Of a stretch of 64,000 bases of DNA, positions 29,945 through 58,650 are shown one piece after another. Where the stretch lies: assembly GCA_030747785.1 (NCBI GenBank), contig JASLKC010000055.1:1-64000 (forward strand), given 5' to 3'. The notes below the pieces were generated by a model. The model did no database searches. It saw only the letters and a program-made list of their open reading frames with translations, and was not told the DNA's origin. Position 1 is the stretch's first letter. Each line of letters begins with the position of its first letter. The stretch is from Candidatus Poseidoniaceae archaeon. GTDB taxonomy: Archaea > Thermoplasmatota > Poseidoniia > Poseidoniales > Poseidoniaceae. Position numbers and translations under genes: made by a program.

Positions 29945-32900
29945 ATGAGACCCGGCTGCCGACCTCAAAACATGCAGGGCAGTGGACGGATTCGACCCTT
30001 TGCCATGCTGACCTTGCTCCTACTTTCCTCACTGTCGCCTATTATCTCAAGTGCAGAGGTTGCTGGTAGGGCTCAGACCACTTGGTCAGGCACTGTGGTT
30101 CTCACAAGTGATTACTACATTCCCGTGACTGATGAATTGGTAATTTCATCCTGTACCAATGTCACTATGGATTCCGGAGTTAGAATCGTTGTTGAGGGTA
30201 GAATTACGGTTGAAGGTACTAGTAATTGCCCAGTTTACCTAGATTATCTCGGCAACGGTGACCACATGGGAATAGTCTTCAATAGTACTTCAAACGGCCG
30301 TGGAAGTCAGATTGACAATTTGACAATTGTTCATTCAGTATATGGAATAACGGTATACGGCAGCGACCCCGTAATTTCAAATCTGACGGTATTCAATCCT
30401 GATGATGTTGGAGTTGACCTCTTCTCTGGTGCAACTCCAACGATCAGGAATCTAATCGTGAATGAGGCAGGACAGGATTGGGTATTTCCTCAATATTGGA
30501 GATATGGAATTGGTCTTTCAGTGGGTTCAGGCTCAGCACCGAATGTAGATGGTGTAATTCTGGATGGACTGGTGACTCGTGGAATCAATTATTGGCATAA
30601 TTCTGGAGGAGTAATTCGAAACATCACCATCACCAATGTTTCAGGGGCAACTCTTGCTACTGCAGCGGGAATTTGGGTAGAGGATAGTGTACCGTTAATC
30701 GAACATGTTAGTATTGATAGAGCCGACCATGGGGTACTTGTTCAACATACAAATGATACACTTCGAACCCGTGCAGTAATCAGAGACGTATCGATTTCAA
30801 ATTCGATGTACAAAGGATTGTATATCGACAAAACAGACCACACCAATTACACAAATTATCAGGCGGCAATCATCGAGGGAATCACGGTTACAGGAACTGG
30901 AGGTGCGGGAGCAAAGACAGCGGGTCTTGCAACAGCAGCAATCGAAGTAAATGCCTCTGGCGCATGGATCGAAGATGCAATTATCGAGGATAATGATGCA
31001 GTTGGAATCAAATTATATTTTGTAGATTCCACTTCGACTTTCACCAATGTTAGCATCAATTCTTCTGGTGGGCTGGGTTCTGGAGCAAATGGTGCTGGAG
31101 TATCCATTTTCGCCTCATATTTTGCTGCTAGTTTCGATGGTCTCGAGATTTCCAATTCAACCGGGCCAGGTGTTCATGCCTCTAGCGGAGGTGCCATTCA
31201 GGGTAGTGATTGGAATCTTCATGATAATGGTGCACAAGGTTTCTGGCTCGATAGTGCAGCTACAATTGTCGATGGTCTAGTTCTAACCGAAAATGGAGAT
31301 GATGGAGTTCACATCAATGATGCAAGGTATGTCTATCTCTCCAATTTGAGTTCTAGTGGTAACTCAGATGCTGGAATGAGTTTCTATAAGGCAAATGACA
31401 TTGAGACCACATCTGGTGATGTGAGTTGTCTTCATTGTACAACTACAGGAGACGGAAGAGGTATTGTCGTATCGGATTCTGTTGACTTATGGTTGACCGA
31501 TGTCGAAATCCATGACCCGATAGTCGGTCCAGCTATTTCCGTAGATAATTCAGGTCTGGACTTAGGAGTTCAAGGGGGTTCTTTCCACTTCATCCAGACT
31601 GAAATTTGGACAAATCACAGCACAGAATACGCAATCAATATCACTTCTGCAGAAGGGGAAATTGACGGCCTTGATATTCATGGCTCTCATCAAGGGATTT
31701 ACTGGGATGCAAATCACAATGTCGAAAGGACAAGTATTCTTTCAAATGCACGATTATCTGGCACGGATTGTTTGAAATTATTGAATCACGATCAGATGAC
31801 TGGAATGGGATCAACGATCACAACCGCATGTACTGGCGACATAGAATTCACCGATTCTGAAGTAAATTGGTCCAATTTGGAAGACCAAACTAACCACGTT
31901 CTCAATTTAGATGCAGATACCCACCTTCACCTTCATCAACCAATTTCGATTGATTTCTCTGCAGCAATAATGGCAAGTGGTGCGTGGATTGATGTGGCTT
32001 GGGACATCGATGTGTGGGTGGTAAACAATTACTCCAATGGCGTACCAAATGCAGTCATTGATGTTTCATTTGACCAATTGGAGCCCGCATTCACTGAAAG
32101 CACCAATGATTTCGGTCTGAAGATTATTCCAGACCTAGTAGGTAAGCGTTATACCTACAATGGAGAGACTCCATTTTCGAACGTTACTGTTGACTGTTCT
32201 TATGATGGCGTTAGCAATTCAACATCATCTATTCTAGACCAAGATATCTCGGTATGGTGCCACCTTCCCTTAGACAACCAAGCTCCATTCCTAATCTGGG
32301 AAGTACCTGTCGACGAGGATGTATTCCCAAGCCACGCAATGATACAATTCAATGCTAGTCAATCTTGGGATTTAGACGATGATCCAATGACGTTCAATTG
32401 GACATCTTCTATTGTTGGAACCTTCGGAAGCAGTGATAATTTCTATGTCAATGATGGTGGCCCATCTGAAATCATTCTTCCCGATGGCATCCACGATATC
32501 ACTCTTGAAATATGCGATGATAAGGGAAATTGTGTAGATGAGACTAGGACGATAGAATTGGCTAATCAACCGCCTGAAATCATAGTAAATACCGACCCTG
32601 CTCTTACGGCATGGGGTGAACTACATTCGCCGCTTACAAAGCCAGTTGCATGGTGGTTGAATGGAACTAATGACCCCGAAAACGACTCGATGTCGTGTTC
32701 GTGGTCATGGCCTGGGCATAGTGAAACAATTTCCGATTGTATCGAAGGTTCAGGAAATCTTAGTTTTGCAGATATGTCGATAACAATGTTTGACCTTACT
32801 CTAAGTGTGAGCGATGGAATCAATACTCCAAGTACTTTGGTAGTTTCAGTGGAGTTATTCAATGAAATGCCAAATGCTTCTTTCACAATTGATAGAGCCG

Positions 32901-34525
32901 ATAATTTCTCAGAAAATGAAGTAGTATTGACCAGCACATCCTTAGATCCTGAGAGTGACCCAATCGAATATTTGTGGTCGAGCAATCTCGATGGAAATCT
33001 AGGAAACCAGAGTGTATGGACCGGCCACCTATCTCGAGGTTCACATGTGATTTCCTTATCTGTGACCGATGGTAGAATGGAACATGTCAATTTGACATCG
33101 ATCAATACTCAAATCATAATTGTAGAAAATAGTCCACCACGGGCAGTAATTGGCGGACCAGATGCAAATGGAATTTATGATTCAAGCCATCTATTCGAAT
33201 TCAATTCTAGTGGTTCTGGCGATTGGGATAGTGCTTGTACGACCTTCCCGACTGGAATCGATTGGCATTGTGCTCCTGTTGAGCCGGCTTCGGGCTCGGA
33301 ATGGCTGGTTTATTCGTGGGTGAGCGATGTCGATGGCATTCTCCAAGAGGATGGTCAGGATTGGTTAATTTTTGAGACGCACCTTAGCTCTGGTCAACAC
33401 AATATCACCCTCTCAATGGATGATGGAATCAACAATCCAGTCGTTTCAACCATCCAACTCAATGTCACCCCTTCAGCTCCGGTATTGGGCCTCGTTTCAC
33501 CCGACCTCAGCGTTGGATACCATTCAAGTGAAACAATTACTCTTGATATCTCAGATTCAGTTGATTATGATGGAGATGAATTCACATTTAGTTTGAGTAG
33601 CGACCTAATGACAGAAACTATCCTAGAAGATGAGGATCCGATGGCGATTCATTTACTCAATTTACCTGCTGGAGATCACACATTGACCTTCACATTGACC
33701 GATGAAACTGGAGAATCAAGAGATGAAGGAATCTTCATCGAAGTCGTAGAATCTGACCCAATGGCAATTATTTTCACTCCAAACGATGGACAATATTTCG
33801 CTCCAGGCTCAGAAATTCTTCTAGATTCTGAAGGCACCTATGATGCAGATGATGACATTACCAAGCGCGAGTGGCGCCATTACATTCCCGGAGCACCATA
33901 CCCCACAATTGTGTCAAATGATGCAGTATACTCTCTTTCATTATCTCCCGGAGCCCACCATCTCTCGCTCTATGTAGAAGATCGCAGAGGCGGCTGGGAT
34001 GAGAATCACATCAACATCACGGCTGGCTCAAGTCCACCCGATTTATCCAACCTTACCGTTAGTTCAGATTCGTTAATTGTGAACAAACTCACTACCCTGG
34101 TCGTAGAGGTAGAACTGGATGACCCCGATGGAACCACAAATTTGGTTACGGGAATAATTTCCCATGATATGCAAAAATGGGAATTCAATCTAAGTGATGA
34201 GGATGGAGATGGAATCTGGATTGGTTCTGTGGACGTTATGCCCGGTATTGAAGGTAGAGCTGCTCTCAAAGTAACCGCTCATGATGGCGGAGTAATAGAC
34301 TCCCAAAGTATGGATTTGAAGTTTAGAAATCAAGTGGAAGATACTTCCTCAATTGTCGCGATAGGGGGCGGAATTGGAATCTTTATCTTACTCTCTCTAG
34401 CTATCGCCATGTTTGTGATTAGACGAAGAAAGAAGTTTGCAGACCTTGAATTAATTGATAATTGGGGTGTATTTGGTTCAGAAACAAAAGAATACCTCCA
34501 AGAGGAAATCGATGAACTGAAGTGA
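29945..34525 (+). CDS. 1526-aa exported parallel beta-helix plus PKD-like repeat surface protein, C-terminal TM
   Basis: Signal 'FAMLTLLLLSSLSPIISSAEV'; right-handed beta-helix-like region; PKD-like 'SLDPESDPIEYLWSSNLDG', 'DSEGTYDADDDITKREW'; TM 'GGIGIFILLSLAIAMFVIRRRKKF'. Confidence 0.82.
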   Translation: MRPGCRPQNMQGSGRIRPFAMLTLLLLSSLSPIISSAEVAGRAQTTWSGTVVLTSDYYIPVTDELVISSCTNVTMDSGVRIVVEGRITVEGTSNCPVYLDYLGNGDHMGIVFNSTSNGRGSQIDNLTIVHSVYGITVYGSDPVISNLTVFNPDDVGVDLFSGATPTIRNLIVNEAGQDWVFPQYWRYGIGLSVGSGSAPNVDGVILDGLVTRGINYWHNSGGVIRNITITNVSGATLATAAGIWVEDSVPLIEHVSIDRADHGVLVQHTNDTLRTRAVIRDVSISNSMYKGLYIDKTDHTNYTNYQAAIIEGITVTGTGGAGAKTAGLATAAIEVNASGAWIEDAIIEDNDAVGIKLYFVDSTSTFTNVSINSSGGLGSGANGAGVSIFASYFAASFDGLEISNSTGPGVHASSGGAIQGSDWNLHDNGAQGFWLDSAATIVDGLVLTENGDDGVHINDARYVYLSNLSSSGNSDAGMSFYKANDIETTSGDVSCLHCTTTGDGRGIVVSDSVDLWLTDVEIHDPIVGPAISVDNSGLDLGVQGGSFHFIQTEIWTNHSTEYAINITSAEGEIDGLDIHGSHQGIYWDANHNVERTSILSNARLSGTDCLKLLNHDQMTGMGSTITTACTGDIEFTDSEVNWSNLEDQTNHVLNLDADTHLHLHQPISIDFSAAIMASGAWIDVAWDIDVWVVNNYSNGVPNAVIDVSFDQLEPAFTESTNDFGLKIIPDLVGKRYTYNGETPFSNVTVDCSYDGVSNSTSSILDQDISVWCHLPLDNQAPFLIWEVPVDEDVFPSHAMIQFNASQSWDLDDDPMTFNWTSSIVGTFGSSDNFYVNDGGPSEIILPDGIHDITLEICDDKGNCVDETRTIELANQPPEIIVNTDPALTAWGELHSPLTKPVAWWLNGTNDPENDSMSCSWSWPGHSETISDCIEGSGNLSFADMSITMFDLTLSVSDGINTPSTLVVSVELFNEMPNASFTIDRADNFSENEVVLTSTSLDPESDPIEYLWSSNLDGNLGNQSVWTGHLSRGSHVISLSVTDGRMEHVNLTSINTQIIIVENSPPRAVIGGPDANGIYDSSHLFEFNSSGSGDWDSACTTFPTGIDWHCAPVEPASGSEWLVYSWVSDVDGILQEDGQDWLIFETHLSSGQHNITLSMDDGINNPVVSTIQLNVTPSAPVLGLVSPDLSVGYHSSETITLDISDSVDYDGDEFTFSLSSDLMTETILEDEDPMAIHLLNLPAGDHTLTFTLTDETGESRDEGIFIEVVESDPMAIIFTPNDGQYFAPGSEILLDSEGTYDADDDITKREWRHYIPGAPYPTIVSNDAVYSLSLSPGAHHLSLYVEDRRGGWDENHINITAGSSPPDLSNLTVSSDSLIVNKLTTLVVEVELDDPDGTTNLVTGIISHDMQKWEFNLSDEDGDGIWIGSVDVMPGIEGRAALKVTAHDGGVIDSQSMDLKFRNQVEDTSSIVAIGGGIGIFILLSLAIAMFVIRRRKKFADLELIDNWGVFGSETKEYLQEEIDELK

Positions 34526-38449: not shown

Positions 38450-40906
38450 ATGCGCGCGAGAGCATGGCTGGCGTTTTGTCTGGCCGCGTGCATGGTGACT
38501 TTTCTTCCACCAGTCGCTGCTGATGATGATATTACCAATGCCAATCCAATGACAAATGGCGTTTCCTCAAATGGCTATGTTTGCTATGATGATGGCTGTT
38601 CACCAAACGATGAAATCGACTGGTGGAAAATGTATGCTTACAAAGGCGACATAGTCCAAGTTTCATTTTCAGGTTCAATGAATAATGGAGCTTGGTGGTG
38701 CCCAGGTGATGGTTGGGAAGCCGATTTTTCTATGCATGACGGGGCAGGGTCACAAGTTGCAAGTCAGGCAATGTCTGATGCAGGTTCATCGACGACTCTG
38801 TCGACGACGATGCCAACTGCGGGATGGGTTTACGCCAAAATCAAGGGCAAGGATAGTTGGTGCAATGATGGAGTCGATTATACTCTAACTCCAAGCATCA
38901 ATCAGGATAGTAGAGATACAGATGAGGATGGTTTCATCGACACTGAAGATGATTGTGATCTTACTGCAGGAACCTCAACCAATGACCGTCAAGGATGCCC
39001 AGATGAGGATTCAGATGGATGGTCGGACCCCGATGGGGGATGGGGCCCAAATAATGGTGCAGATGCATTCCGATCCGAGCCAAGTCAATGGATGGATTCA
39101 GATAACGATGGTTATGGCGATAATTTAGATGGATTCCAAGGAGATCATTGCCCTTATCGACGTGGATACTCTGCCGAGGACCGCTTCGGTTGCCTTGATT
39201 CAGATGGTGATGGCTGGTCTGATGCAGACCCTGGCGGCCTAGATGGCGTAACCGAATGGTACGCACATCCTCAGGGCTTAGGCGATTCTTTCCCATTTGA
39301 AGCCAGCCAATGGCAAGATACCGATGAGGATGGCTTCGGCGATAATTGGGCTGACCCTGAATGGAATGATACCAGAGTCAATTGGTCGATTGGAATTTGG
39401 TATGATAATGCCAGTACACCAGATGCTTGTCCTTTCGTAACAGGATATTCAATTCAAGATAGGTATGGTTGTCCAGACGAAGATTCCGATGGATGGTCAG
39501 ATCCAGATGGAAATTGGACAGCAGCCGATGGCGCAGATGCATTCCCTACCATTCCAAGCCAGTGGTCTGACCGCGATGGCGATGGTTGGGGTGATAATCA
39601 GAGCCTAGATGCCGAACAAGTCGATGACTTCCCTGATAATCCAAGCCAGTGGTTGGATACCGATGGCGATGGCTGGGGAGACAATCAATCATATGGTGCA
39701 TCTCAAGTAGACGATTTCCCACTAATACCTTCGCAGCACCTCGATTCCGATGGAGATGGCTATGGGGATAATCTAACGGGATTCGAAGCTGATGTTTGCC
39801 CTCTTTCAACAGTTGAAGAAGTTGAAAGTGGTTGGATTAGTTGGGCTGACCGCTTTGGTTGCTTTGACTCAGATATGGATGGATATTCCAATCCCGATGA
39901 TTGGTGGATTTCGCACCCCGACGGCTTTGCAGATGCCTTCCCAGACGACGAGAGCCAATGGCACGATACCGATGACGATGGCTATGGCGACAATTCCGAA
40001 TATTTTGACGGAGAGACTTGGCGAGAAGCATGGAGAGGAGATGGCTGCGTTTCTACAGAAGGCAACTCCACCATGGACCGTTGGGGCTGCCCTGACTATG
40101 ATGGCGACGGCTATTCCGACCCTACTGCGCACTGGTTATCTAGCCCAGGAGGGCAAGGAGATGCTTGGCCTGCTGACCCAACTCAGTGGCACGATAGAGA
40201 TGGCGATGGTAGAGGTGATAATCCACGTGGAACCACTGCAGACGTTTGTCCAGACGTTCCCGGTACCTCAGTCGGACCAATACAAGGTGGAGATCGATGG
40301 GGTTGTCACGATACCGATGGTGATGGTTGGTCAGACCTCGGAGATACTTTCCCGCATGAGCCAACTCAGTGGCGTGATTCTGATAGTGATGGTTTCGGCG
40401 ATGATCCAAATGGGCATGAAGGCGATGCTTGTCCTAGTGAGAGAGGTCAATCATTCTTTGACCGCTTAGGTTGCCGTGATTCAGACGGTGATGGATGGTC
40501 AGACCCTTCACAGGATTGGCCGGCATCACCGTGGGGTACTGCAGATGCTTTCCCTACAGACAGAATGCAATGGGAAGACCTTGATGAAGATGGCTTTGGC
40601 GATGTTCAGATGGGCGCTCTAAGAGATGACTGCCCAGATGTTTCTGGCACTTCGTATAGAGATGTACAAGGTTGCCCAGACCGCGACGGTGACGGATGGT
40701 CTGACGAATACGGCGGCTGGAATGCAGCGATTTCAATCATGGGTGAAGACCCAGCAGCGAGTTGGTTATCATATCTCATTCTTGGGAGCACGATGATTTT
40801 CGCATCGATGATAGCCCATCTTACCAAAATGAGTAGATCGGCTGAAGCACTTGAGAGAGGACTTTCCAATCCAGAGAAAGAACAAGGAGGTGAATTCGAT
40901 GCGTGA
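38450..40906 (+). CDS. Exported thrombospondin type-3 / calcium-binding repeat protein
   Basis: Signal peptide and many 'D(S/T)DGDGWGDN' units; C-terminal TM. Confidence 0.88.
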   Translation: MRARAWLAFCLAACMVTFLPPVAADDDITNANPMTNGVSSNGYVCYDDGCSPNDEIDWWKMYAYKGDIVQVSFSGSMNNGAWWCPGDGWEADFSMHDGAGSQVASQAMSDAGSSTTLSTTMPTAGWVYAKIKGKDSWCNDGVDYTLTPSINQDSRDTDEDGFIDTEDDCDLTAGTSTNDRQGCPDEDSDGWSDPDGGWGPNNGADAFRSEPSQWMDSDNDGYGDNLDGFQGDHCPYRRGYSAEDRFGCLDSDGDGWSDADPGGLDGVTEWYAHPQGLGDSFPFEASQWQDTDEDGFGDNWADPEWNDTRVNWSIGIWYDNASTPDACPFVTGYSIQDRYGCPDEDSDGWSDPDGNWTAADGADAFPTIPSQWSDRDGDGWGDNQSLDAEQVDDFPDNPSQWLDTDGDGWGDNQSYGASQVDDFPLIPSQHLDSDGDGYGDNLTGFEADVCPLSTVEEVESGWISWADRFGCFDSDMDGYSNPDDWWISHPDGFADAFPDDESQWHDTDDDGYGDNSEYFDGETWREAWRGDGCVSTEGNSTMDRWGCPDYDGDGYSDPTAHWLSSPGGQGDAWPADPTQWHDRDGDGRGDNPRGTTADVCPDVPGTSVGPIQGGDRWGCHDTDGDGWSDLGDTFPHEPTQWRDSDSDGFGDDPNGHEGDACPSERGQSFFDRLGCRDSDGDGWSDPSQDWPASPWGTADAFPTDRMQWEDLDEDGFGDVQMGALRDDCPDVSGTSYRDVQGCPDRDGDGWSDEYGGWNAAISIMGEDPAASWLSYLILGSTMIFASMIAHLTKMSRSAEALERGLSNPEKEQGGEFDA

Positions 40907-42161
40907 GTTCTTCCTTGCTCTGCTAATTATCACCTCGTGTTTCATCCAACCGGTTTCTGCTGAGGAGGTAGACCCATTCGAAGAAGCTGGACTGACACTC
41001 GTCGCTCTAAGAAACGATAGTTTGGATGTAGACCAAGACGGTATTATTGATTCTATCCGGGTAGTAATCGTTCTTAATTCAACAAATTCTTGGGTGGATT
41101 TGACACTTACATTATACGGAGAATATGCCGGTAGAATCGTGGATGATGAAATTACTATGTCCTTTGATATGCAGGCCAATGCATCGATTACATACGATTC
41201 TTGGGCCGAAGGAGAACATATGCTATATCTCGATATTACAGATGTTGAAGGGCGATTATTATCGCAGATTGCCATAGGTAGTTTTGACCTAACACCTGCA
41301 CTCTTGACGCCTTCTATTGACTTGCAACTATCCGGCTCGGAAATAATGGAGACCGGGGACGATTGCCAAATTGAGAGAAAATTCATCGACGAAACAGGTC
41401 CACGATATGGAATGGATGGAACCCGTTCAATCAGTGGAACCCCATTCAAGGTTCTCGATGACCAGAACTTCTTAGATTGCAGCGATTGGCCTGCAGGCGA
41501 ATACATTATTCGCGAAACATATCAAAACGGACTTGGCCAAACATCGATGGATGAATTGGAGATTGTTATTGTTAACAAGCCACCTCCAGCATTTGAGTTG
41601 GCTGTATCAGGAAATGAAGTGGCAGTCGGCGGTCCATGCTCAATCGACCATGTCCCTGCACCCGGAGAGGACCATCTGCTCTATACCAAAACATGGACAA
41701 TTACTCCACAAAGTGGTCTTGATTCCAACAGTAGTCGAGTTGATTGTAAAGACTGGTCACCAGGAGTCTACAAGGTTCTTCTGACAGTTACAAATTTCGA
41801 GGGCATAAAGGCTACTGAAGGAGTGATGTTGGTCCGACTTCCACCGCCAGTCGTACAAGATGTTCCCCAAGATGATGCCCTACCATTACAGTCACGCGGT
41901 GAGGATACTCAAACTTCATCTGTAGGATGGTATGGTATTGGTTTACTTTCGATTTTCCTTGGAATTGCGGTATTTGTATTGATGTCTCGAAATTCTGAAG
42001 ACGAAGATATTCTGATGTCCATCAACCTAGATTCAGATGGGAAACCAGATTCTGATGGCTTACCAACCCATGTCGATGATGAGGGAATTCTTTGGCGTCG
42101 TCATGAAGATGGTCAAGTAGATTGGTGGGATCAATCAATGATGATGTGGTCAAGGTGGTAG
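40899..42161 (+). CDS. Exported membrane-anchored protein with Trp-rich cytosolic C-terminal motif
   Basis: Signal 'MREFFLALLIITSCFIQPVSA', TM 'GWYGIGLLSIFLGIAVFVLM', tail 'VDDEGILWRRHEDGQVDWWDQSMMMWSRW'; SD-like AGGAGGTG upstream of 40899. Confidence 0.75.
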   Translation: MREFFLALLIITSCFIQPVSAEEVDPFEEAGLTLVALRNDSLDVDQDGIIDSIRVVIVLNSTNSWVDLTLTLYGEYAGRIVDDEITMSFDMQANASITYDSWAEGEHMLYLDITDVEGRLLSQIAIGSFDLTPALLTPSIDLQLSGSEIMETGDDCQIERKFIDETGPRYGMDGTRSISGTPFKVLDDQNFLDCSDWPAGEYIIRETYQNGLGQTSMDELEIVIVNKPPPAFELAVSGNEVAVGGPCSIDHVPAPGEDHLLYTKTWTITPQSGLDSNSSRVDCKDWSPGVYKVLLTVTNFEGIKATEGVMLVRLPPPVVQDVPQDDALPLQSRGEDTQTSSVGWYGIGLLSIFLGIAVFVLMSRNSEDEDILMSINLDSDGKPDSDGLPTHVDDEGILWRRHEDGQVDWWDQSMMMWSRW

Positions 42162-42162
42162 T

Positions 42163-43032
42163 ATGGAATGGGGAATCATACTAAAATGGACATTATATCT
42201 TGTCTGTGTATTAGCCATTATTTTTGCTTCAAGGCTAATGTGGATATGGTGGACCCGAGTAAGAACAGAGGCTCCACAACTCAATAGAGAATGGGTTGCA
42301 GATTGCAGGGGATTGGGTACAGCAACGATAGATGGACCGGAAATTGTAATCAAAGATGTCAGAGATTTCAAATGGCGGACTAGTAGGGATTTTGATGAGA
42401 AATGGATAGAAGTTTCAGTAAATGCAGATTCGATAAAGGATGTGTGGTTTGTCATCGATCACTTCCACAAAATCAAAGGATTAGCTCACACCATGATTTC
42501 ATTTGAATTCGAAGATGGACAAGTAATCACATTCTCATTTGAGACAAGGCGAGAAATCGGCGAAAGATATCACCCATGGGATGGGATGTGGAGAGCATAC
42601 GAACTCTATCTTCTCGTAGCTACCGAGAGAGATGCTCTGCATCTCAGAACAAATGTCAGACATCACAAGGTTCACTTATTCAGGGCACAGACGCCTCCGG
42701 GTAAAGACAAGGCCTTGCTATTGGCCTTGCTGGCTCGCCTAAATCAGATTGCAGAACGTCCGGAATGGTATCACACCCTATTCAGTACATGTACTACCTC
42801 GATTGTCGACCAAGTGAATTTGATTACTCCCGGAAGAATTCCAAAGATGTGGCGCACATTACTTCCTGGCCATTCTGGCAAGGCCGCATGGAAATTGAAG
42901 TTGATCGAAGATTGGGGCGGATTTGAAGGAACAATGATTGCGAGCCGTATCGATGAAAAGGCTTGTGACTGGGATGAAAAAGAGGAATATTCTCTTCACA
43001 TCAGACGCCATCTACCTCCGCGTTCAAGTTGA
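42163..43032 (+). CDS. Hypothetical membrane-anchored protein
   Basis: N-terminal TM 'LKWTLYLVCVLAIIFASRLMWIWW'. Confidence 0.65.
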   Translation: MEWGIILKWTLYLVCVLAIIFASRLMWIWWTRVRTEAPQLNREWVADCRGLGTATIDGPEIVIKDVRDFKWRTSRDFDEKWIEVSVNADSIKDVWFVIDHFHKIKGLAHTMISFEFEDGQVITFSFETRREIGERYHPWDGMWRAYELYLLVATERDALHLRTNVRHHKVHLFRAQTPPGKDKALLLALLARLNQIAERPEWYHTLFSTCTTSIVDQVNLITPGRIPKMWRTLLPGHSGKAAWKLKLIEDWGGFEGTMIASRIDEKACDWDEKEEYSLHIRRHLPPRSS

Positions 43033-43593
43033 CCAGACGAAGAGTAAATCTCCTGTCGCATGGGAGATTTCTACAGCCCCACCTTTTGCGGTGTTTCCTA
43101 CTCCCTTTGTTCCGGTGTTCAAGTTCTCATTATTCATTTCAAATTCACAACCACTTAGGGTGACCGACTCGACGGGACCGAGTGCAAATAGAGCGCAAAT
43201 AGAGCTGCTTTCCAACTCGATACTTAGCCCATCATCTGGGACTCTACATGCTCTCCAGCCATCGAGATATAGAATTGCATCAGAGTTGGATTCCACAAGT
43301 GAAGTATATGCTTGAAGTTGGTGATCTAACCTTCCTCCAGCAATTCCTACTACTGCATCAACATCATATTTCTTCAGTGCTTTTGCAAGGTCTGAATCAT
43401 CTTGATTATCCGTGGTTTCAAGGCCTTCACGACTCTTAATTGAATCGAGATCGCCAATCACCACATCCCATCCTTCAAAACGGTCGGCAGCACCATCGAG
43501 TGCAATGGTGAAATCCGCTTGCTCAATTAATGCTTCAAATAGCTCATCTGAAGGAAACTCACCATTGGCCACTACGAGGACAAATTCCGCCAT
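43024..43593 (-). CDS. Thiamine pyrophosphokinase-like protein
   Basis: 'ALDGAADRF', 'VVIGDLDSIKS', 'DNQDDSDLAKALKKY', 'GIAGGRLDHQLQAYTSL'. Confidence 0.85.
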   Translation of the reverse strand: MAEFVLVVANGEFPSDELFEALIEQADFTIALDGAADRFEGWDVVIGDLDSIKSREGLETTDNQDDSDLAKALKKYDVDAVVGIAGGRLDHQLQAYTSLVESNSDAILYLDGWRACRVPDDGLSIELESSSICALFALGPVESVTLSGCEFEMNNENLNTGTKGVGNTAKGGAVEISHATGDLLFVWST

Positions 43594-43710: not shown

Positions 43711-46700
43711 ATGGATAGCATGTCATGGCGCGGCAAGGCTCTGCCAATCGCGATTCTTGTGTTATTTGTCATGCAATCCGCTTCGCCATTCATTGGCAAC
43801 CAGCCTGTTCTCGTAGAGGATGAAGTAGTCCATAATACGGCAACTGTGCCCTTTTCCAACGGAAGTGGGCATGATTTAGCAGGCACCACGTTGACCTTGG
43901 ATGGAGTGGATTGGACCGTTCGACCAGAATCGAATTTGGACCTCTGGAATAGTTATCCATTACTCAATAAATCGGATAGCAAGGATTTGCTTGTATTGCC
44001 TAATGGAGAAGTAATGGCTTGCTCATTGAATGCTGGCCAACCCAGTTTGATTATTTTACATCTCAATGACTCTTTGTCAGAAATAGAATTCGACTCCCCT
44101 TCAGTCACACCGATATTTGAGCAGTCTTGTTCAATCGCAGTAAATGATCTGGGTCGCATTCACATCGCATACACGATGGACAATAATCTCAAGGTCGCAA
44201 GATTAGCGGTAGAAAATGCAGTATACTCTGAACCAACTTGGCATATCAGAACAATTGAGAATGAATCACAACCACTCGGCCTTGAGATGGTTATCGATTC
44301 TGATGAGAGAATGCATATCCTCTATGTAACGGATGTCGGATTGGAAAAGATGTCTTTTAACAAGGCATTCTGGGACCATAACATTCTAGAAAAAGGTGAC
44401 ATTGGCACTGATTTGGAAGTCGAGATAGATGATTCAGATATGTTACATATCGTCTATGTTGAAGAGACAGAAGGCGAGGTAAGGCTACTTAGAACCGATG
44501 GTTTGCAGACTACAAAGCAGGTATTGGCAAGAGGTACTGAGATAATGTCGCATGTTGCGATGGACCTCGATTCTAATTCTATCGAACAACTTGTTTATTC
44601 ATCGGGTAACGATGTCAATAACACTTCACTTTCTTTGGTTCGGAGCCTTGTCGGAGAAGATGAGGGGCGAATCAATCCCAATGCAAAATGGAGTTTGAGT
44701 CTTGATGATGATAGTGAAGAAGGAGTCATTGCAAGTGGTGACCTCAACGGCGATGGTCGTGATGACCTCGTCTATACAATCCCTGATGGAAATGGTACAG
44801 TTTCGATTCACTATGGCTCACCCGATGGGCCAAGTGACTATCCCGACAAGGTTCTGGTTGGAGAGAATGCAGATTCTTCTTTGGGAACTGGATTAGCAAT
44901 CGGAGATTGGAATTGTGATGGATATGATGATATTGCAGTTTCAGAACCTGGTCTGGCAAATAATTCCTCAGGATACGTATGGGCAATTCTCGGAGGAGAA
45001 GATGGGCTCGAGAATTCATCTTGGTGGAATATGACCGGCGAGGATGACGATGGACTGGGATGGTCCATGACCTCGATGGGAGATGTTGAGAATGATGGCT
45101 GTGATGATTTAGCTATCGTCGCTTACGGTACTGTTTCAGTAGATGAAGAAGGAGTGGTGGTCGCCAAAGGCAAGGTCGTCTTGCTACGTGGAAATTCCTC
45201 TGGTCTTCAGAATTACCAAAATATTACTCAAACACTCGATGGGCCACAATTTGGTAGAGTTGTAGTCGGTGGAGGAGATTACGATGGTGATGGTCATCCA
45301 GACCTCGCAATCTCAAATACCGGTACAGTTGATTCACCTACTGGATACAGTTCTCTCGAAGTATTTGCAGGCGGAACTGGAGGAATCGATCCACTCCCTA
45401 TTCAATCTGAACAAATTCTACTACAAGGCAAATTATTCGGTGCAGCAATGGCATGTGTTGGAGATATTGATGGTGATGGAAATGATGACCTCTTACTATC
45501 CGAACTCTATGCTGATGGTGGATTGTACCACTCTGGGAAAATACATCTCTGGACAGGTAGTTCTAACGGGCCCACATCGACTTGGAGTCTCAAAGGAAGT
45601 TATGCTAATGCTAACTTTGGAACAAATCTCGCATCTGCTGGCGATGTGAATGAGGACGGGTACGATGATTTCCTAGTAATGCAACTCCCCAATTCCAATA
45701 GTGGCAAGGTCGAACTATTCCTTGGTGGGCCAAATGGTGTACGCACCGATGTGCAATTATTCGCAGAAGGTGCAACAAATGAGCACCTTGGGCTCAGACT
45801 GCTAACAGGCATGGACCTAGATGGAGATGGAATGGGAGACTTGGCCTATTCAACTAGAGATTTGACACGTGGAGATGCTTTCGGCCCAGAGATTGTCATT
45901 TTGACCGAGCGTGACTGGGAGTTCATCGACTTTTCAATCAATGCAGAGATTTCTGATGTCTCAATGGGAACAAGCGCTCGTGGAACGCCCTCGATACTTG
46001 TCGACATTACCGGCCAAGACAATCTGTTAATCGAACATATTCTTGACGGTACCCCTGGTGGTAAATGGTCGATGCTTTCAATGCAAGATATCAGAGATGG
46101 CTTAATCGATGTTAGTTCGGCTGGTAAACCCTATATTTTCAATAATTGTAATTGGGAAATATGTGTAGAAGGCGCGAAAATAACTACACCAATAGGCCAA
46201 ACAATGTTGGAGAAAGAATTGGTATCAAGCGGTAGCATGGGGCAGATGTTAGGTGGAATTACAGATGATGCTGGAAAGCAGCGTCTCGCTTTTGCTAGTG
46301 CACCTATGTCCCAGATTCTCTACTCTGAAGAAGGAGTTAGCAGTTGGTCTTCTAGTTTGGTCAGGGGTTCTATTGATCTCCGACATCCAATCGATGTCCA
46401 TCTCGATTCTGATGGATATAGTAACCTAATCTATGTGAACGACGATGGTGGTCAAATTGAAATTGCAACACTAAATAGCACCTGGTCACTTTCACAACTC
46501 ACTAATACAACAGTTGGAAATGATTTCGATTCACTCTGGCTCGACGATGATAGAATAATAATTCTGCAAGTCGGAATGGTAGAGAATGATAGCTGGTTAC
46601 AATTCTTAGAATTCAGTGCAGAAAATGAAACTGGAGTGCGAAATCATACAGTGACAGATATCGCTCAGGTCAATACTACTGCCCTATTTGAAATCGACAT

Positions 46701-49700
46701 TATTCGTGATGACCAACTTGCCCTCGTTTACATGGATGGCGATACCATGCAAATCGACGTACGTAATCTCAGCGGTGGTAATTGGACCAACGAGCAAAAT
46801 ATTTGGTTAGGCAATCATGATACTAATCGTATACTTGCAATGGATGGTGGAGCAATCCTCCATGATTCAAATGGCAGTAGCCATGGGACTCTTATCGAAA
46901 GTAATGGTTCATGGAATAGCATTACTCACGATGTACCTACATCCGCTTCAGGCATCGAATATACCAGTATGGCCAATCATTGGTATGCAACAACAATCGA
47001 TACCAATGGTAACCTTGTGTTGACATTTGGTGCAAATGATGGCGAAATCCAATTTTCTCATGCAATGGAATCGATTTTTGCATCTGGCCCTGCTCCAATT
47101 TCTGAAGGGTTGAATGAGAGTGCGCACATCGTATACTTTGAGAGTATAAATGAAGATGTAATTCTTCTACGCACCCTTCGTGATAAAGACCGTGATATGA
47201 TTCCTAATCTAATTGATGATATGGCCCGAATTGGCGATCAATGGTCCGATTCTGATGGTGATGGGTATGGAGATAATGACCTCGGACCATCGGCTGATAA
47301 TTGCCCGAATACGAATGGGCCCTCTTCAATTCAAGTATTGGGCTGCAATGACTATGATTTGGATGGTTGGACAGATGCTGAAGATGATTGTGTCAATGAT
47401 GACGGAATGTCATGGTGGGGTCGATTCGGTTGTGCAGACCTTGACCAAGATGGCTGGTCTGACAATGATGCGACGTGGATTGGTGGCGACCGTTTTGGAA
47501 CAAATTGGAAGCAGGCTTTAGACACCGATTTGGATGGATACGGGGATAACCATGGACCGGATTGTTGTAATACAGAATTCGATAACAAGATGCCAGACCT
47601 TTTCCCATACAATAGCAAACAGTGGGAAGATCTTGATGGTGATGGTTATGGGGACAACTCATCCGATTTCGTGACTGGAGACCAATGCCCTTGGGAAGCA
47701 GGATATTCGTGGAGAGACCGCCTTGGTTGCTATGATTCGGATGGCGACGGAGCATCGGACCCTTCGAATATTGGCAAAGTAACCGAATGGAATGAGAGTC
47801 ATGGTGCCGATTGGTGGCCATCTGATGGGACCCAATGGGCAGATTCAGATGGTGATGGATTTGGAGATAATGATTCAGAGGGCGCTACGACTCCAGATAA
47901 ATTCCCAACTAATGAAGCAGCTGCAAATGATACTGATGGCGACGGATACCCAAATAATTGGACCAGCCTGAAAAATGCAAATAATACTCAAGGACTCGAA
48001 TTAGATTCTTGTCCTAATATGTGGGGGAATTCTACCAATCCACAGTGGGGCTGTGTTGACAGTGATGGCGATGGAATGATGGACGCCGCAGATCATTTCC
48101 CATACGATTCAACTCAGGTCCAGGATTCCGATGGCGACGGATGGGGCGATAATCAACAAGGAACAGACCCGGACAAGTGTCCTTTCGATATTGGAGTTTG
48201 GAATGGTACGCTTGGTCTAGGTTGTCCGCTAATCAACGATGATGATGACGATGCTGATTTGGTTCCAAATGAATACGATGAGTGCCCTGATACTGAAGCA
48301 GATTTAGAAGTAGATTCAGTCGGATGTGCAAATAATCAGAAGGATGATGACCAAGATGGTGTTAACAACCATCTCGACCTTTGTCCAAATTCGGAATTCG
48401 AGGCCGTGGTAGATGCAGATGGTTGTACTCTAACCCAATCAGAAACCGACTCAGATAATGACGGTGTAATGGATCCAGAAGATTTGTGTCCTGATTCAGA
48501 CTCAGAAATTGAGGTAGATGATGTAGGTTGTAACCCTGCTCAAAGAGATGATGATGGTGATGGAATCAGCAATGCAGAGGATATGCAATGTCCAGAAACC
48601 CCTGAAGGTTATCCAATTTATGAGGATGGCCCAGATATCGGATGTACCGATGAAACTCAACTAGAAGTTGACTTCGATGGCGATGGTTGGCTAGGAGATT
48701 ACTCCTATGACCCGATTAATGACATTCACACCGGCGATGCATTCCCTGCAGATCCTACTCAATGGCAAGACCGTGATGGTGATGGCTATGGCGATAATGC
48801 AAACGGAAATCTCGCAGATGATTGCCCAGACCAATGGGGTAATTCCACAGAGAGAGATACGCTTGGTTGCACAGATACAGATGGGGACGGATTCCAAGAT
48901 GCAATGGGTCATGATGCATTCCCGAATGATTCAACACAGTGGCTAGACGAAGATTTCGATGGATATGGTGACAATTCTTCTGGGAATTTACCTGATTTAT
49001 GTCCAGGTACAAATCCGTCATTAAAACACGAGGCAGATGGGTTTTCAGGCTGTTCACAAGAACAAAGAGATTCAGATGGCGATGGTGTAAATGACAGATT
49101 AGATACTTGCCCTGATACTCCACTCGGCAAGGAAGTCTACACCGATGGCTGTCCAGTACCTTCTACCGAAGGCCCAAATGGTGATTCTGACCTAATCATG
49201 GGAATGGAGCCAATGATATTCTACGCCGCAGCAGGCGGTGGTGCACTATTGATACTCGTCATATTGATTTTGATAATCAGAAGACTTGGGGGAGGAGATT
49301 ACGACCTCGATGATGATGAAGATGATGAGGATTGGTTCGATGACGATGATGATGAAGATGATTTCATGTCGAATTTACTCGGTGGTAGCGGTCCAACACG
49401 AGGTCCTGCCGGTCCAAACCCAGCACGAGGCCCCGGTGGTCCAACAAGAGGTCCAGGAGGTCCAACTCGAGGCCCTAGTGGCCCAGCAGGAGGTCCAACC
49501 CGAGGTCCCGGCGGTCCAATAGGAGGTCCAGGAGGCCCAACTCGAGGCCCCGGCGGTCCAGCAAGAGGCCCAGGAGGTCCAACACGAGGCCCCGGTGGTC
49601 CAGCAAGCGGTCCAGAAGGCTCAAAACCAGTAACTAAGAAAAAAGCAGTTAGTGGAAAAAAGGTCAGGAAGACTAAGGTAAATATCCCTTCAGATTTGTT

Positions 49701-49857
49701 TTCGCAGGATGAACTTGCAGACCGTAAGGCAGCAATAGATTGGGCAAAGCAAGCAATCTCAGATGGTGATGCAGAAAGGAGCATTATGATGCAACTACAG
49801 AGCACTGGTTGGACAGCTCCTCAGTCTCGAGCAATCCATGACCTTGCGAAGCGTTAA
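43711..49857 (+). CDS. 2048-aa exported protein: seven FG-GAP repeats (integrin-alpha-like propeller), thrombospondin type-3 repeats, TM, acidic patch, Gly-Pro-rich cytosolic tail
   Basis: DLNGDGRDD, DWNCDGYDD, DVENDGCDD, DYDGDGHPD, DIDGDGNDD, DVNEDGYDD, DLDGDGMGD; many DSDGDGxGDN; TM 'MIFYAAAGGGALLILVILILIIRRL'. Confidence 0.88.
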   Translation: MDSMSWRGKALPIAILVLFVMQSASPFIGNQPVLVEDEVVHNTATVPFSNGSGHDLAGTTLTLDGVDWTVRPESNLDLWNSYPLLNKSDSKDLLVLPNGEVMACSLNAGQPSLIILHLNDSLSEIEFDSPSVTPIFEQSCSIAVNDLGRIHIAYTMDNNLKVARLAVENAVYSEPTWHIRTIENESQPLGLEMVIDSDERMHILYVTDVGLEKMSFNKAFWDHNILEKGDIGTDLEVEIDDSDMLHIVYVEETEGEVRLLRTDGLQTTKQVLARGTEIMSHVAMDLDSNSIEQLVYSSGNDVNNTSLSLVRSLVGEDEGRINPNAKWSLSLDDDSEEGVIASGDLNGDGRDDLVYTIPDGNGTVSIHYGSPDGPSDYPDKVLVGENADSSLGTGLAIGDWNCDGYDDIAVSEPGLANNSSGYVWAILGGEDGLENSSWWNMTGEDDDGLGWSMTSMGDVENDGCDDLAIVAYGTVSVDEEGVVVAKGKVVLLRGNSSGLQNYQNITQTLDGPQFGRVVVGGGDYDGDGHPDLAISNTGTVDSPTGYSSLEVFAGGTGGIDPLPIQSEQILLQGKLFGAAMACVGDIDGDGNDDLLLSELYADGGLYHSGKIHLWTGSSNGPTSTWSLKGSYANANFGTNLASAGDVNEDGYDDFLVMQLPNSNSGKVELFLGGPNGVRTDVQLFAEGATNEHLGLRLLTGMDLDGDGMGDLAYSTRDLTRGDAFGPEIVILTERDWEFIDFSINAEISDVSMGTSARGTPSILVDITGQDNLLIEHILDGTPGGKWSMLSMQDIRDGLIDVSSAGKPYIFNNCNWEICVEGAKITTPIGQTMLEKELVSSGSMGQMLGGITDDAGKQRLAFASAPMSQILYSEEGVSSWSSSLVRGSIDLRHPIDVHLDSDGYSNLIYVNDDGGQIEIATLNSTWSLSQLTNTTVGNDFDSLWLDDDRIIILQVGMVENDSWLQFLEFSAENETGVRNHTVTDIAQVNTTALFEIDIIRDDQLALVYMDGDTMQIDVRNLSGGNWTNEQNIWLGNHDTNRILAMDGGAILHDSNGSSHGTLIESNGSWNSITHDVPTSASGIEYTSMANHWYATTIDTNGNLVLTFGANDGEIQFSHAMESIFASGPAPISEGLNESAHIVYFESINEDVILLRTLRDKDRDMIPNLIDDMARIGDQWSDSDGDGYGDNDLGPSADNCPNTNGPSSIQVLGCNDYDLDGWTDAEDDCVNDDGMSWWGRFGCADLDQDGWSDNDATWIGGDRFGTNWKQALDTDLDGYGDNHGPDCCNTEFDNKMPDLFPYNSKQWEDLDGDGYGDNSSDFVTGDQCPWEAGYSWRDRLGCYDSDGDGASDPSNIGKVTEWNESHGADWWPSDGTQWADSDGDGFGDNDSEGATTPDKFPTNEAAANDTDGDGYPNNWTSLKNANNTQGLELDSCPNMWGNSTNPQWGCVDSDGDGMMDAADHFPYDSTQVQDSDGDGWGDNQQGTDPDKCPFDIGVWNGTLGLGCPLINDDDDDADLVPNEYDECPDTEADLEVDSVGCANNQKDDDQDGVNNHLDLCPNSEFEAVVDADGCTLTQSETDSDNDGVMDPEDLCPDSDSEIEVDDVGCNPAQRDDDGDGISNAEDMQCPETPEGYPIYEDGPDIGCTDETQLEVDFDGDGWLGDYSYDPINDIHTGDAFPADPTQWQDRDGDGYGDNANGNLADDCPDQWGNSTERDTLGCTDTDGDGFQDAMGHDAFPNDSTQWLDEDFDGYGDNSSGNLPDLCPGTNPSLKHEADGFSGCSQEQRDSDGDGVNDRLDTCPDTPLGKEVYTDGCPVPSTEGPNGDSDLIMGMEPMIFYAAAGGGALLILVILILIIRRLGGGDYDLDDDEDDEDWFDDDDDEDDFMSNLLGGSGPTRGPAGPNPARGPGGPTRGPGGPTRGPSGPAGGPTRGPGGPIGGPGGPTRGPGGPARGPGGPTRGPGGPASGPEGSKPVTKKKAVSGKKVRKTKVNIPSDLFSQDELADRKAAIDWAKQAISDGDAERSIMMQLQSTGWTAPQSRAIHDLAKR
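49388..49620 (+). repeat. Gly/Pro/Arg-rich low-complexity repeat (RGPGGPTRGPGGP...) in the cytosolic tail
   Basis: Imperfect tandem 'ggtccaacacgaggccccggt' type units. Confidence 0.9.
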
Positions 49858-49914: not shown

Positions 49915-51369
49915 ATGAGCACTGAAGGTGAAGGCGCAATGATGCCAGATGGCATCGAGGTCGATGAGGCCGCTGCTTACTTTGGTGTGGTTGCATCTTC
50001 CGATAGTCTTCATCAGATGATGGCCTTACCTCGCAAAGAATCAATGCAACGTTTCTTTGTTCTATTATCTGATTTGGTTCTCAAGCCTGGGGATTTTGAT
50101 TTTGAAGAAGCGAGCGAACGTTTGCAGTGCGAAGGTGGCGAAATCTACTATCTGGTCGCAGGACATCTTGGAATAATGTCGATGCCACTTCCATTATTGG
50201 CTGCTATTGAGGCGGGTAATTTTTCTGGAGAAGATATGGTCTTAGCAACCGAAATGTCAGATCCAATGAGAATTCTCAAACTCTTTGCTATTGCCCAGCA
50301 GACCGGAGGAGAGGCAGAGGTCGCAAATTATCTTTCAATTATGGATACGATAATGAGTGACCCAGTCTCAAATTCAGATAAATTACTTGCTGTTGCTCGA
50401 GATTTACGTGCTTCATTCGATGTATCAGGCCATGTAATGCCAGTTTCTAGTCTGGCAACTTCTGGAGCGAATGCATCTGAACTTGAAGCAGCAAATGTGG
50501 CGAATGTTGCAGCATTACCTGCACTCGAAAAGACACCTTCTGTTCCAGTAACAATCCCTAAGCCTGAAGTCATTGCAAGTGTGCCTTTGCCAAAAGAAGT
50601 TGCAAGTGTTCCTATTCCAACAGCAGAGCCAATACCACTTCCAGAGGTAGAGGAGCCAAAGATAGCAGTCGATGAGCGCAAGGATGCTGAAAAGACCGAT
50701 GATGCATTTGCTGGCGCATTTGGTATGCAAGAACCCGAACCTGAGCCAGAACCTGAGCCAGAACCCGAACCTGAGCCAGAGCCAGAACCAGAACCCGAGC
50801 CTGAGCCAGAGCCAGAACCCGAGCCTGAGCCTGAGCCAGAACCCGAACCTGAGCCCACTCTCGAAGAGAAGTTTGCTGCTGCAGATACAGATGATAGCGG
50901 TTCCCTTTCGGTTGAGGAAGTAGCTGAAGTAACGGGATTAGATATCGAAGCAGCAACAACACTCCATGCAGCAGCAGATGCTGATGGTGATGGAGAAGTC
51001 ACTCTTGAAGAGCTTAAAGCAGCTCCAAAGGTTGCGGAAAAGATACTCCCCAAGCCAGTCAAACCGGTTAGAAGTAAGATTCAGCCCCAGCCGCCTCAAG
51101 CACCTCAAGCACCACAAGGAACGCCACAGTGGGGCCAGCAACAACCAGTGCAGCAGCCAACGCAGCAACCAGTGCAGCAACCAATGCAGCAATGGCCGCA
51201 ACAAAATCCTCCTTTAGGCCAGCAAATTGGCCAGCAACAGCAGCAATGGAATCAGCCAGTACAACCAATGCAACCTACTATTAGATCTGGAATTCATTGT
51301 AGAGGTTGTAGAATTGGTGTTGATCCCAACTGGAGATTTTGTCCGGTATGCGGAACACAAAATCGTTGA
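49915..51369 (+). CDS. Cytosolic-looking modular protein: helical N-term, (EP)n linker, EF-hand pair, Pro/Gln-rich segment, C-terminal zinc ribbon
   Basis: '[13 protein letters not shown]' and '[13 protein letters not shown]' EF loops; '[22 protein letters not shown]'. Confidence 0.82.
50731..50856 (+). repeat. (Glu-Pro)21 coding repeat
   Basis: 126 nt of gaRccN hexamers, read directly. Confidence 0.92.
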
Positions 51370-56405: not shown

Positions 56406-58505
56406 TCAGTCATTACCGTATTTATCACGGATATCAGCATGGAATGAATCGAGCAGGGTATCTTCGAATAATTCGGTCTGGCGACGGTTTTTGGTCGAAC
56501 GCATGTGTAAGAATGCCATACCTACGAATGCAATAATTGCAATTGGAATAGCGGCTTCAAGTTTGTATTTGTGCATGACAGTCACGATGCCTTCAGCAGT
56601 ATAAGCCCAAGTTAGAGATGCACCTGCGCCTCCAAGGAAAGTAGCCCAAAGCACGCGCATGAACTTCATTCGAGACAATAATCCCAACATTGCTCCAACT
56701 AGAACACCAGATGCCATGAAAGGAATCCACACGAATACAATTAGTCCCCAGAAGCCCCAACGGTTAATCATCTCACGTTTCTCATTCGCAGTATATTCTA
56801 CTGTTGAAAGGATATTTCCAAAGAGTTTGGTCTGGAGCACTCTGCCACCTAAACCATCTTGTCGTGCAACAGCTGCAACTCGCTCATCTTGAGGGTCGCT
56901 GCTCGCCAATTTCTCAACTCTTCCAGCACCGGAACGATCTGCAAGAGTAGATACAAGGTTACGGCCTTTTACGATTAATTCTTGGCTACCGATTAATTCT
57001 GGGTTTTCACGAGAAATATAGGAGCGCAGGTCTTTTTCAATGTCATAATTTGATTCCTTGAATCTGAAGAAAGCCAACCGCTTAGTAGGCCTGTAAGCCA
57101 CTCTGACGAAAATGATACTATCTTCACTGGTGACGGTCGCCATTTGCAATAAGAGGTCGGTTTTTGAACGGAAGAATCCCTTTACAGATTCCCGAACCTC
57201 GTCTTCAACCTTTGAAAGCATGTGTAGGTCGCGGAAGAATGCCGTGTAATCCTGGTCTTCTTTTTCATCATCATCTACCATTCCACTACCGACTCCGACT
57301 CCGGTTTCGAAATCAATTGCTTGATTATCACCAATCGTACGAACAGTTAATTGTACAGGTTTGAAGACTCTGAAGAGAGCAAATTCATCGAGAACCTCCT
57401 TTAGAACTTCTGAACGTACATCACCTGAATCGGAAAGAGTTCCGTCGGTATTGTGGTAAGGTATCATAATATCAATTGAAAGGTCCCTCACTTCGATTTT
57501 GTAAAGGTCCCAGTCGATATTGATATGGAGCCGTATCTCAGTACTTTGTAGTATATCTGCTACTACCTTTTTGATGTGTGTTCGTGACAACATATCGTCA
57601 GAATCTTGGTGATATAATTTGTACATCACAGGATATGCAAGGAATAGACTGATGACAGAAAGAGATAGCGAAACAAAGGCCATCCACCATGCAGGGATAC
57701 CAGCAGCTCCACCGGTCAACATTGCGGTCTCACGGCCACCGCCTAATTCGGCACCCATCAGAACGAACCCCCAGTTCCCAAGGTCCTGAACAGACCAACA
57801 GGAACGAGGCCCAGTATCAGTAATGTGAGCCTCTCTTTTCACATCGGAATCAACCCACGGTAAGAATGCCAGAGCATTTTCTGAAGTTACAATTTCAAAT
57901 TCGATTACCTTCTCTAGTGTCTCACTACCTTCGGTTCGGTTATCATCGGTTAGATTATTTGGGTCTGAGATGTTTGCATCTTCATTGTATACATCGATAA
58001 ATACGCTAACTTCGTATTTACCTTCAGACCAATCCGAGTAATCAACTAGTGCACTTTTATCTTCTACTTGACCAGTAACAACATCAGGGTCGCTCGTATT
58101 CCCAATACCTTCGACCGTCCAATTCAAAATGACTTGCCCATCATCTAAATTCCGTCCTGAAATTTTAACGGCTTCAACATCATTATCGGGATAAGCGTGT
58201 ATCCAGGGAACATCAGAAATCTCTTCACATTGGTCTCCTCTATCGAGAAAAGTATCAGATGCATAGTGATCAAGCGTGGTCGATTCTCCAAAAACACCAG
58301 TTGACATCCCAAATAGCAGAATAGCGTAAAGAGCACCATAACCGATTCCCAATAGCAGAATCCAATCTTCACGTGCTGCAGGGAAGCGTCTACTCGAATC
58401 ACTAGTACGGCGTTTTCGTATTGCAGCGAGTTCCTTTGCGGCTTTGCTGATGGGTTTACGCTCAGAAGATGTATCCTCTTCTGGAACCTCATCTTCGACC
58501 GTCAT
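56406..58505 (-). CDS. Large multi-pass membrane protein with extracytoplasmic domain; function unknown
   Basis: TM segments near both ends; ORF extends upstream through the tRNA, so a start at 58505 (or 58532) is preferred. Confidence 0.7.
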   Translation of the reverse strand: MTVEDEVPEEDTSSERKPISKAAKELAAIRKRRTSDSSRRFPAAREDWILLLGIGYGALYAILLFGMSTGVFGESTTLDHYASDTFLDRGDQCEEISDVPWIHAYPDNDVEAVKISGRNLDDGQVILNWTVEGIGNTSDPDVVTGQVEDKSALVDYSDWSEGKYEVSVFIDVYNEDANISDPNNLTDDNRTEGSETLEKVIEFEIVTSENALAFLPWVDSDVKREAHITDTGPRSCWSVQDLGNWGFVLMGAELGGGRETAMLTGGAAGIPAWWMAFVSLSLSVISLFLAYPVMYKLYHQDSDDMLSRTHIKKVVADILQSTEIRLHINIDWDLYKIEVRDLSIDIMIPYHNTDGTLSDSGDVRSEVLKEVLDEFALFRVFKPVQLTVRTIGDNQAIDFETGVGVGSGMVDDDEKEDQDYTAFFRDLHMLSKVEDEVRESVKGFFRSKTDLLLQMATVTSEDSIIFVRVAYRPTKRLAFFRFKESNYDIEKDLRSYISRENPELIGSQELIVKGRNLVSTLADRSGAGRVEKLASSDPQDERVAAVARQDGLGGRVLQTKLFGNILSTVEYTANEKREMINRWGFWGLIVFVWIPFMASGVLVGAMLGLLSRMKFMRVLWATFLGGAGASLTWAYTAEGIVTVMHKYKLEAAIPIAIIAFVGMAFLHMRSTKNRRQTELFEDTLLDSFHADIRDKYGND

Positions 58506-58578
58506 ATGTGCCCCTACGGGGCACAGGCTCATGAAGCCTCTGTTAGTACAACTACTACGTCTAGAAGACACTGAAGGT

Positions 58579-58650
58579 GGGTTAGGCCGGACTTGAACCA
58601 GCGACCTCGGCATCTTCAGTGCCGCGCTCTCCCAACTAAGCTACTAACCC
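58579..58650 (-). tRNA. tRNA-Phe (anticodon GAA), no encoded CCA, no intron
   Basis: Minus strand GGGTTAG...CGGCA-CTGAAGA-TGCCG...GCTGG-TTCAAGT-CCGGC-CTAACCC; all stems pair; G37 present. Confidence 0.95.

Follow-up and report, generated by a model that had tools for sequence, protein, structure and literature searches.

The window (the whole 64,000-nucleotide stretch of a Candidatus Poseidoniaceae contig analyzed here) encodes a 2048-residue surface protein in which predicted fold, sequence and Ca sites support an integrin-alpha-type seven-bladed propeller at residues 322-742. The protein is most likely a very large type-I membrane protein at the cell surface, and its sequence supports an extracellular propeller held by a single-pass anchor, the cytosolic end of which is conserved. 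We consider it moderately probable that it acts as a Ca-stiffened surface adhesin or ligand-capture protein. To our knowledge, there is no well-characterized isolate of the Poseidoniales. Among the planktonic archaea of the surface ocean they are the most abundant (PMC6461757). With a defined head, stalk, anchor and tail and a co-inherited cytosolic neighbor, the protein is a family-wide candidate for holding particles or algae.

Domain order, topology and conservation

The gene and the domains of its product are the following.

43711-49857, + strand: FG-GAP surface protein gene, single ORF, 2048 aa
43711-43791, + strand: signal-peptide-like hydrophobic N-terminus (residues 1-27; hydropathy peak at residue 10)
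43792-44673, + strand: N-terminal all-beta domain, propeller-like (residues 28-321; AF2 model of residues 28-1165)
44674-45936, + strand: predicted seven-bladed FG-GAP (integrin-type) beta-propeller (residues 322-742; AF2, Foldseek, phmmer)
45946-47205, + strand: all-beta domain, propeller-like, from propeller to stalk (residues 746-1165; AF2 model)
47206-49200, + strand: thrombospondin-type-3-like Ca-binding stalk (residues 1166-1830; motif and Cys counts)
49213-49281, + strand: transmembrane (TM) helix (residues 1835-1857; hydropathy)
49282-49662, + strand: acidic run and Gly-Pro-Thr-Arg low-complexity linker, cytosolic side (residues 1858-1984; sequence)
49663-49854, + strand: conserved C-terminal tail domain, MQLQxTGWxAxQSRAI (residues 1985-2048)

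The AF2 model of residues 28-1165 (mean pLDDT 83) suggests an ectodomain of three tandem beta-rich domains, of which the middle one is the FG-GAP propeller and probably all are propellers. A Foldseek search with this three-domain model returned DDB1 and other multi-propeller proteins at low TM-scores, and the flanking domains are not typed by it.

The preliminary description had the propeller followed by a thrombospondin type-3 stalk. A stalk resembling this type is present, but it does not follow directly, and a beta domain of about 420 residues (746-1165) lies between the two. Residues 1166-1834 contain 14 DxDxDGxxD motifs and 26 Cys; we call the stalk TSP3-like because its Pfam TSP_3 (PF02412) score of 16.9 bits is below the cut-off of 25. 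The only strong hydrophobic stretch apart from the N-terminus is in residues 1835-1857, which agrees with the single TM helix claimed earlier and is compatible with a cytosolic tail. N-glycosylation sequons occur outside only, and the tail has none. The single-pass layout, with a signal-like N-terminus, one TM helix and the C-terminal tail inside, is read from hydropathy and sequon distribution only. On the cytosolic side, a 28-residue acidic run is followed by a Gly-Pro-Thr-Arg repeat and then by a conserved end, about 60 residues long. The tail had been described as structured; only this last part looks so, the larger part being acidic or rich in Gly and Pro.

Full-length orthologs were 37-56% identical within the genus and family. 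Most genomes of the genus have a near-full-length ortholog (mostly 44-56% identity), as do most of the family (37-44%), where the position of the gene is conserved; the second family has more divergent orthologs in part of its genomes. The named records among the retrieved relatives were Poseidoniales, including Poseidoniaceae and Poseidonia. Outside the Poseidoniales, the nearest matches, at 27-34% identity, were FG-GAP proteins from a wide range of bacterial phyla and from one Thermoplasmata archaeon.

The least conserved part of the protein is domain 746-1165, and the head domains diverge faster than the stalk and the tail, which is odd for a lattice protein. We therefore regard as improbable that the protein is a structural cell-envelope component (S-layer-like or a spacer) with no specific ligand. 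The very large, Ca-motif-rich, Cys-rich and conserved stalk would suit such a role, but the protein is missing from one genus of its own family (g5), and the tail and the neighbor gene described below are absent from most genera of the second family.

The propeller and its likeness to integrins

The search for the pattern D-x-[DNE]-x-[DN]-G-x-x-[DE] revealed exactly seven Ca-blade motifs in residues 28-1165, with none elsewhere in that range, against a mean of 0.05 and a maximum of 2 in 20,000 shuffles of the FG-GAP region. This bears out the seven ordered DxDxDGxxD-type signatures that had been noticed before.

44740-44766, + strand: Ca motif of blade 1, DLNGDGRDD (from residue 344)
44905-44931, + strand: Ca motif of blade 2, DWNCDGYDD (from residue 399)
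45082-45108, + strand: Ca motif of blade 3, DVENDGCDD (from residue 458; non-standard, E at the third position)
45277-45303, + strand: Ca motif of blade 4, DYDGDGHPD (from residue 523)
45463-45489, + strand: Ca motif of blade 5, DIDGDGNDD (from residue 585)
45643-45669, + strand: Ca motif of blade 6, DVNEDGYDD (from residue 645)
45814-45840, + strand: Ca motif of blade 7, DLDGDGMGD (from residue 702)

The motifs are spaced by 55, 59, 65, 62, 60 and 57 residues. The form DxDxDGxxD is found in 3/7 blades and DxNxDGxxD in another 3/7, and blade 3 has the variant given above. Against Pfam FG-GAP (PF01839) the protein scored 39.4 bits (cut-off 22.1), and five blades were significant individually. 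It is the only gene in the window's genome with above-cut-off FG-GAP matches, and all of its orthologs compared (18/18) match PF01839. All seven motif positions are conserved in the genus orthologs and most of them across the family, and the AB (Ca) loops are the most conserved loops of the propeller (0.84 vs 0.65-0.68 for the others). The blades may be occupied by Ca2+.

AF2 prediction of residues 322-742 alone (pLDDT 90.4, pTM 0.90) gave seven four-stranded blades, in line with the propeller proposed in the preliminary description. The count of 7 x 4 strands is reached by assigning the strand at model residues 6-9 to blade 7. In integrins the last blade is completed by the N-terminal strand (PMC3192720), and in the model the fourth strand of blade 7 is best accounted for in the same way. 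The order of the strands, the high pTM and the matches in Foldseek lead us to infer that the seven blades close. The best 50 PDB matches listed by Foldseek were all integrin alpha chains, with TM-scores of up to 0.69 over the whole domain, and the best solved relative by sequence in phmmer was integrin alpha-5 (E=2e-14). The viral fold search returned giant-virus and phage FG-GAP proteins; the fold is therefore widespread.

Like the propeller of metazoan integrin alpha (alpha-5, alpha-V, alpha-IIb), the archaeal one has seven FG-GAP blades with a Ca loop between strands A and B, and its last blade is apparently closed by the strand preceding blade 1. However, identity is about 14-20%, and the Ca motif is in all seven archaeal blades and in 3-4 of those of integrins. 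Integrin membership fails on the position of the propeller, which is internal and not at the mature N-terminus (it comes after another beta domain of about 295 residues), on the thigh/calf Ig-like leg domains, which were not found in the protein (Pfam gives only FG-GAP and a weak TSP_3), and on the juxtamembrane GFFKR, which is absent, the sequence after the TM helix being RRLGGGDYDLDDDEDD. It also fails on the VWA partner and the cage proline. No beta subunit was found: there was no VWA (PF00092) match in the window's genome, which is 86% complete. The B-segment cage proline is missing from most blades: it is in register only in blades 1 and 2, and in blade 6 it is shifted.

Among solved structures, integrin alpha is the closest in fold and in sequence, and the single TM helix, the conserved tail and the neighboring cytosolic EF-hand protein would also fit an archaeal protein truly related to integrin alpha and acting as a heterodimeric adhesion receptor with outside-in signaling. 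Yet the differences just listed argue against such a receptor, as does the wide distribution of similar propellers in bacteria, and we consider it very unlikely. Thus, of the integrin-alpha-like receptor suggested earlier, the propeller fold, the sequence likeness and the Ca sites stand and the integrin-alpha domain order does not. An archaeal origin of integrins is not shown by the finding of this propeller.

Bacterial integrin-type seven-bladed propellers have already been described (PMC3192720). They have seven repeats of similar blade length, each with a Ca motif, which is the criterion for this type; in the archaeal protein the motif is likewise present in each of the seven repeats, with the E variant in blade 3. 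The published propellers occur without a TM helix and have the full FG-GAP/Cage motif in every blade, whereas the archaeal protein is membrane-anchored with a conserved tail and has this motif only in part: the strict motif of PMC3192720 calls for the FG/Cage glycine and the B-segment proline in every blade, whereas [FL]G is found in 6/7 blades here, FG in three, and the proline as given above. The protein adds a membrane-anchored case to the prokaryotic integrin-type propellers, together with a new lineage-specific tail domain. Archaeal calcium-blade proteins are known from Methanosarcina and Archaeoglobus (PMC3123361), and they share the Dx[DN]xDG blade embedding, a likeness at the blade level. 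The VCBS/PVL lectin-type propellers are in the same propeller supercluster and share the DxDxDG loop; since FG-GAP/VCBS propellers are known from lectins, enzymes and toxins as well (PMC8023676), the fold does not fix the function.

The tail domain and the co-inherited neighbor

The motif MQLQxTGWxAxQSRAI, in the last 64 residues, is nearly invariant across the family. The tail domain had no PDB sequence match at E up to 10, and its Pfam matches were at chance level only, in single members. Among 293 genomes sampled across the phylum it occurred only in Poseidoniales. It is found once per genome at the conserved FG-GAP locus, and in the window's genome on the FG-GAP surface protein only.

In genus g12, of the second family, the same tail is found instead on a surface subtilase and on a putative esterase with a TSP3-like stalk. 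These two carriers lie at L147:1592-5962 and L148:1211-3751; the subtilase has CARDB domains and the other is esterase-like. Because of them, the tail is a reusable cytosolic module and not an adhesin mark, and its use as an adhesin marker was rejected.

The g12 enzymes favor the strongest rival of the adhesin reading, a polymer-capture scaffold of a surface degradation system. Here the propellers would hold protein or polysaccharide substrates near surface peptidases and esterases, and the tail would be a shared display or anchoring module. The window encodes a large M60-like peptidase and further peptidases downstream, and Poseidoniales have been described as protein and saccharide degraders (PMC9258230). 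But the FG-GAP protein has no catalytic domain in the Pfam scan, and the confinement of the tail to this one protein in the window's genome also speaks against a scaffold, which we hold to be possible but rather unlikely.

Three genes of the neighborhood were compared with the FG-GAP gene.

49915-51369, + strand: downstream gene of a 484-aa EF-hand/zinc-ribbon protein, adjoining the FG-GAP gene
43024-43593, - strand: thiamine pyrophosphokinase gene, a passenger embedded in the block
40851-42161, + strand: gene of a putative single-pass surface protein, 436 aa, with a WW-rich C-terminus

The EF-hand gene starts 57 bases past the FG-GAP stop and is preceded by a GGAGG-type ribosome site. Its product lacks a signal peptide. 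A Pro-Glu linker joins its conserved N-terminal domain to an EF-hand pair, and a Gln-rich linker leads from there to a C-terminal zinc ribbon. The Pro-Glu repeat is long, and the N-terminal domain (about 168 residues, 60% mean column identity) had no Pfam match in a scan of the whole protein.

Co-occurrence was counted in 165 genomes that were at least 80% complete, by comparing the two lists by hand. The tail was present in 100/165 genomes and the EF-hand gene in 99/165; 95 had both, and in 93 of these 95 the two genes were close on one contig. The five genomes with only the tail were all g12, and the four with only the EF-hand gene were all g5. Two g5 loci were inspected, and at both of them the FG-GAP gene was cleanly absent between the thiamine pyrophosphokinase and EF-hand genes. 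An obligate pairing was rejected because g5 keeps the EF-hand gene without the FG-GAP gene. The thiamine pyrophosphokinase gene was found in 85/88 genomes, including genera without the pair; since this control is present nearly everywhere, general genome loss does not explain why the two genes of the pair are absent together. These counts ignore shared descent, and independent losses may be few. Adjacency as proof of a partnership is weakened by the synteny of the whole block.

The tail may contact the EF-hand/zinc-ribbon protein. It seems to us improbable that the two form a transmembrane adhesion-signaling pair, in which ligand binding by the propellers would act through the TM helix and the tail on the EF-hand/zinc-ribbon protein, as an independently assembled counterpart of integrin signaling in planktonic archaea.

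The 436-aa surface protein largely tracks the FG-GAP gene by genus, with exceptions in g3 and g8, and its C-terminal end has a conserved WRxHxDGxxDWWD-type motif. An Lnb_N-domain (PF13387) protein at 42163-43032, between the surface genes and the thiamine pyrophosphokinase gene, was not seen in the g5 locus (L155).

Proposed function and other genes of the window

As a surface adhesin or ligand-capture protein, the FG-GAP protein would work as follows. The Ca-binding, Cys-rich thrombospondin-3-like stalk, of about 670 residues, would hold the heads off the membrane, and Ca2+ of seawater would stiffen the blades and the stalk. The variable head loops would bind an outside ligand (a glycan, a protein or a particle), and the single TM helix and the conserved tail domain would fasten the protein to the cell. 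To some extent the protein would thus act in the manner of an integrin head. Ligand binding and adhesion are thus its presumed activities, and adhesion is plausible.

Against an adhesin stand the lack of the whole FG-GAP gene in g5 and the tail of the g12 subtilase and esterase. An adhesin of an archaellum-linked attachment lifestyle would be expected to co-occur with archaellin, but in the second family the two did not coincide consistently: in g14 and g22 archaellin occurs and the tail does not, and g17, g21 and g12 have the tail with no archaellin among the matches listed. Since the distributions of archaellin (PF01917) and the tail do not agree there, the archaellum link was rejected.

Thrombospondin-repeat genes of Poseidoniales were previously linked to adhesion (PMC6461757). 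Their surface proteins share the TSP3-like Ca stalk with ours, but that paper, in its main text, says nothing of a propeller or of integrin-like domains. Ca-binding protein families specific to each Poseidoniales family have been reported as well (PMC9258230). In the open-access literature we found no paper that combines Marine Group II, adhesion and FG-GAP. The membrane-anchored combination, the Poseidoniales-only tail domain and the co-inherited EF-hand/zinc-ribbon neighbor appear to be new.

Other genes of the window also encode large proteins. The M60-like (enhancin/mucinase-type) peptidase at 17516-21463 (1315 aa) has He_PIG domains and is a candidate large surface peptidase. A 1526-aa protein at 29945-34525, with right-handed beta-helix, NosD-like and PKD domains, is a candidate surface protein adjoining glycosyltransferase genes, and a 1046-aa FtsX-like permease at 12-3152 also has pentapeptide repeats. 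The start of a 735-aa ORF (56406-58613) is overlapped by a minus-strand tRNA-Phe (gaa) at 58576-58650, and the true start of this ORF is probably further in.
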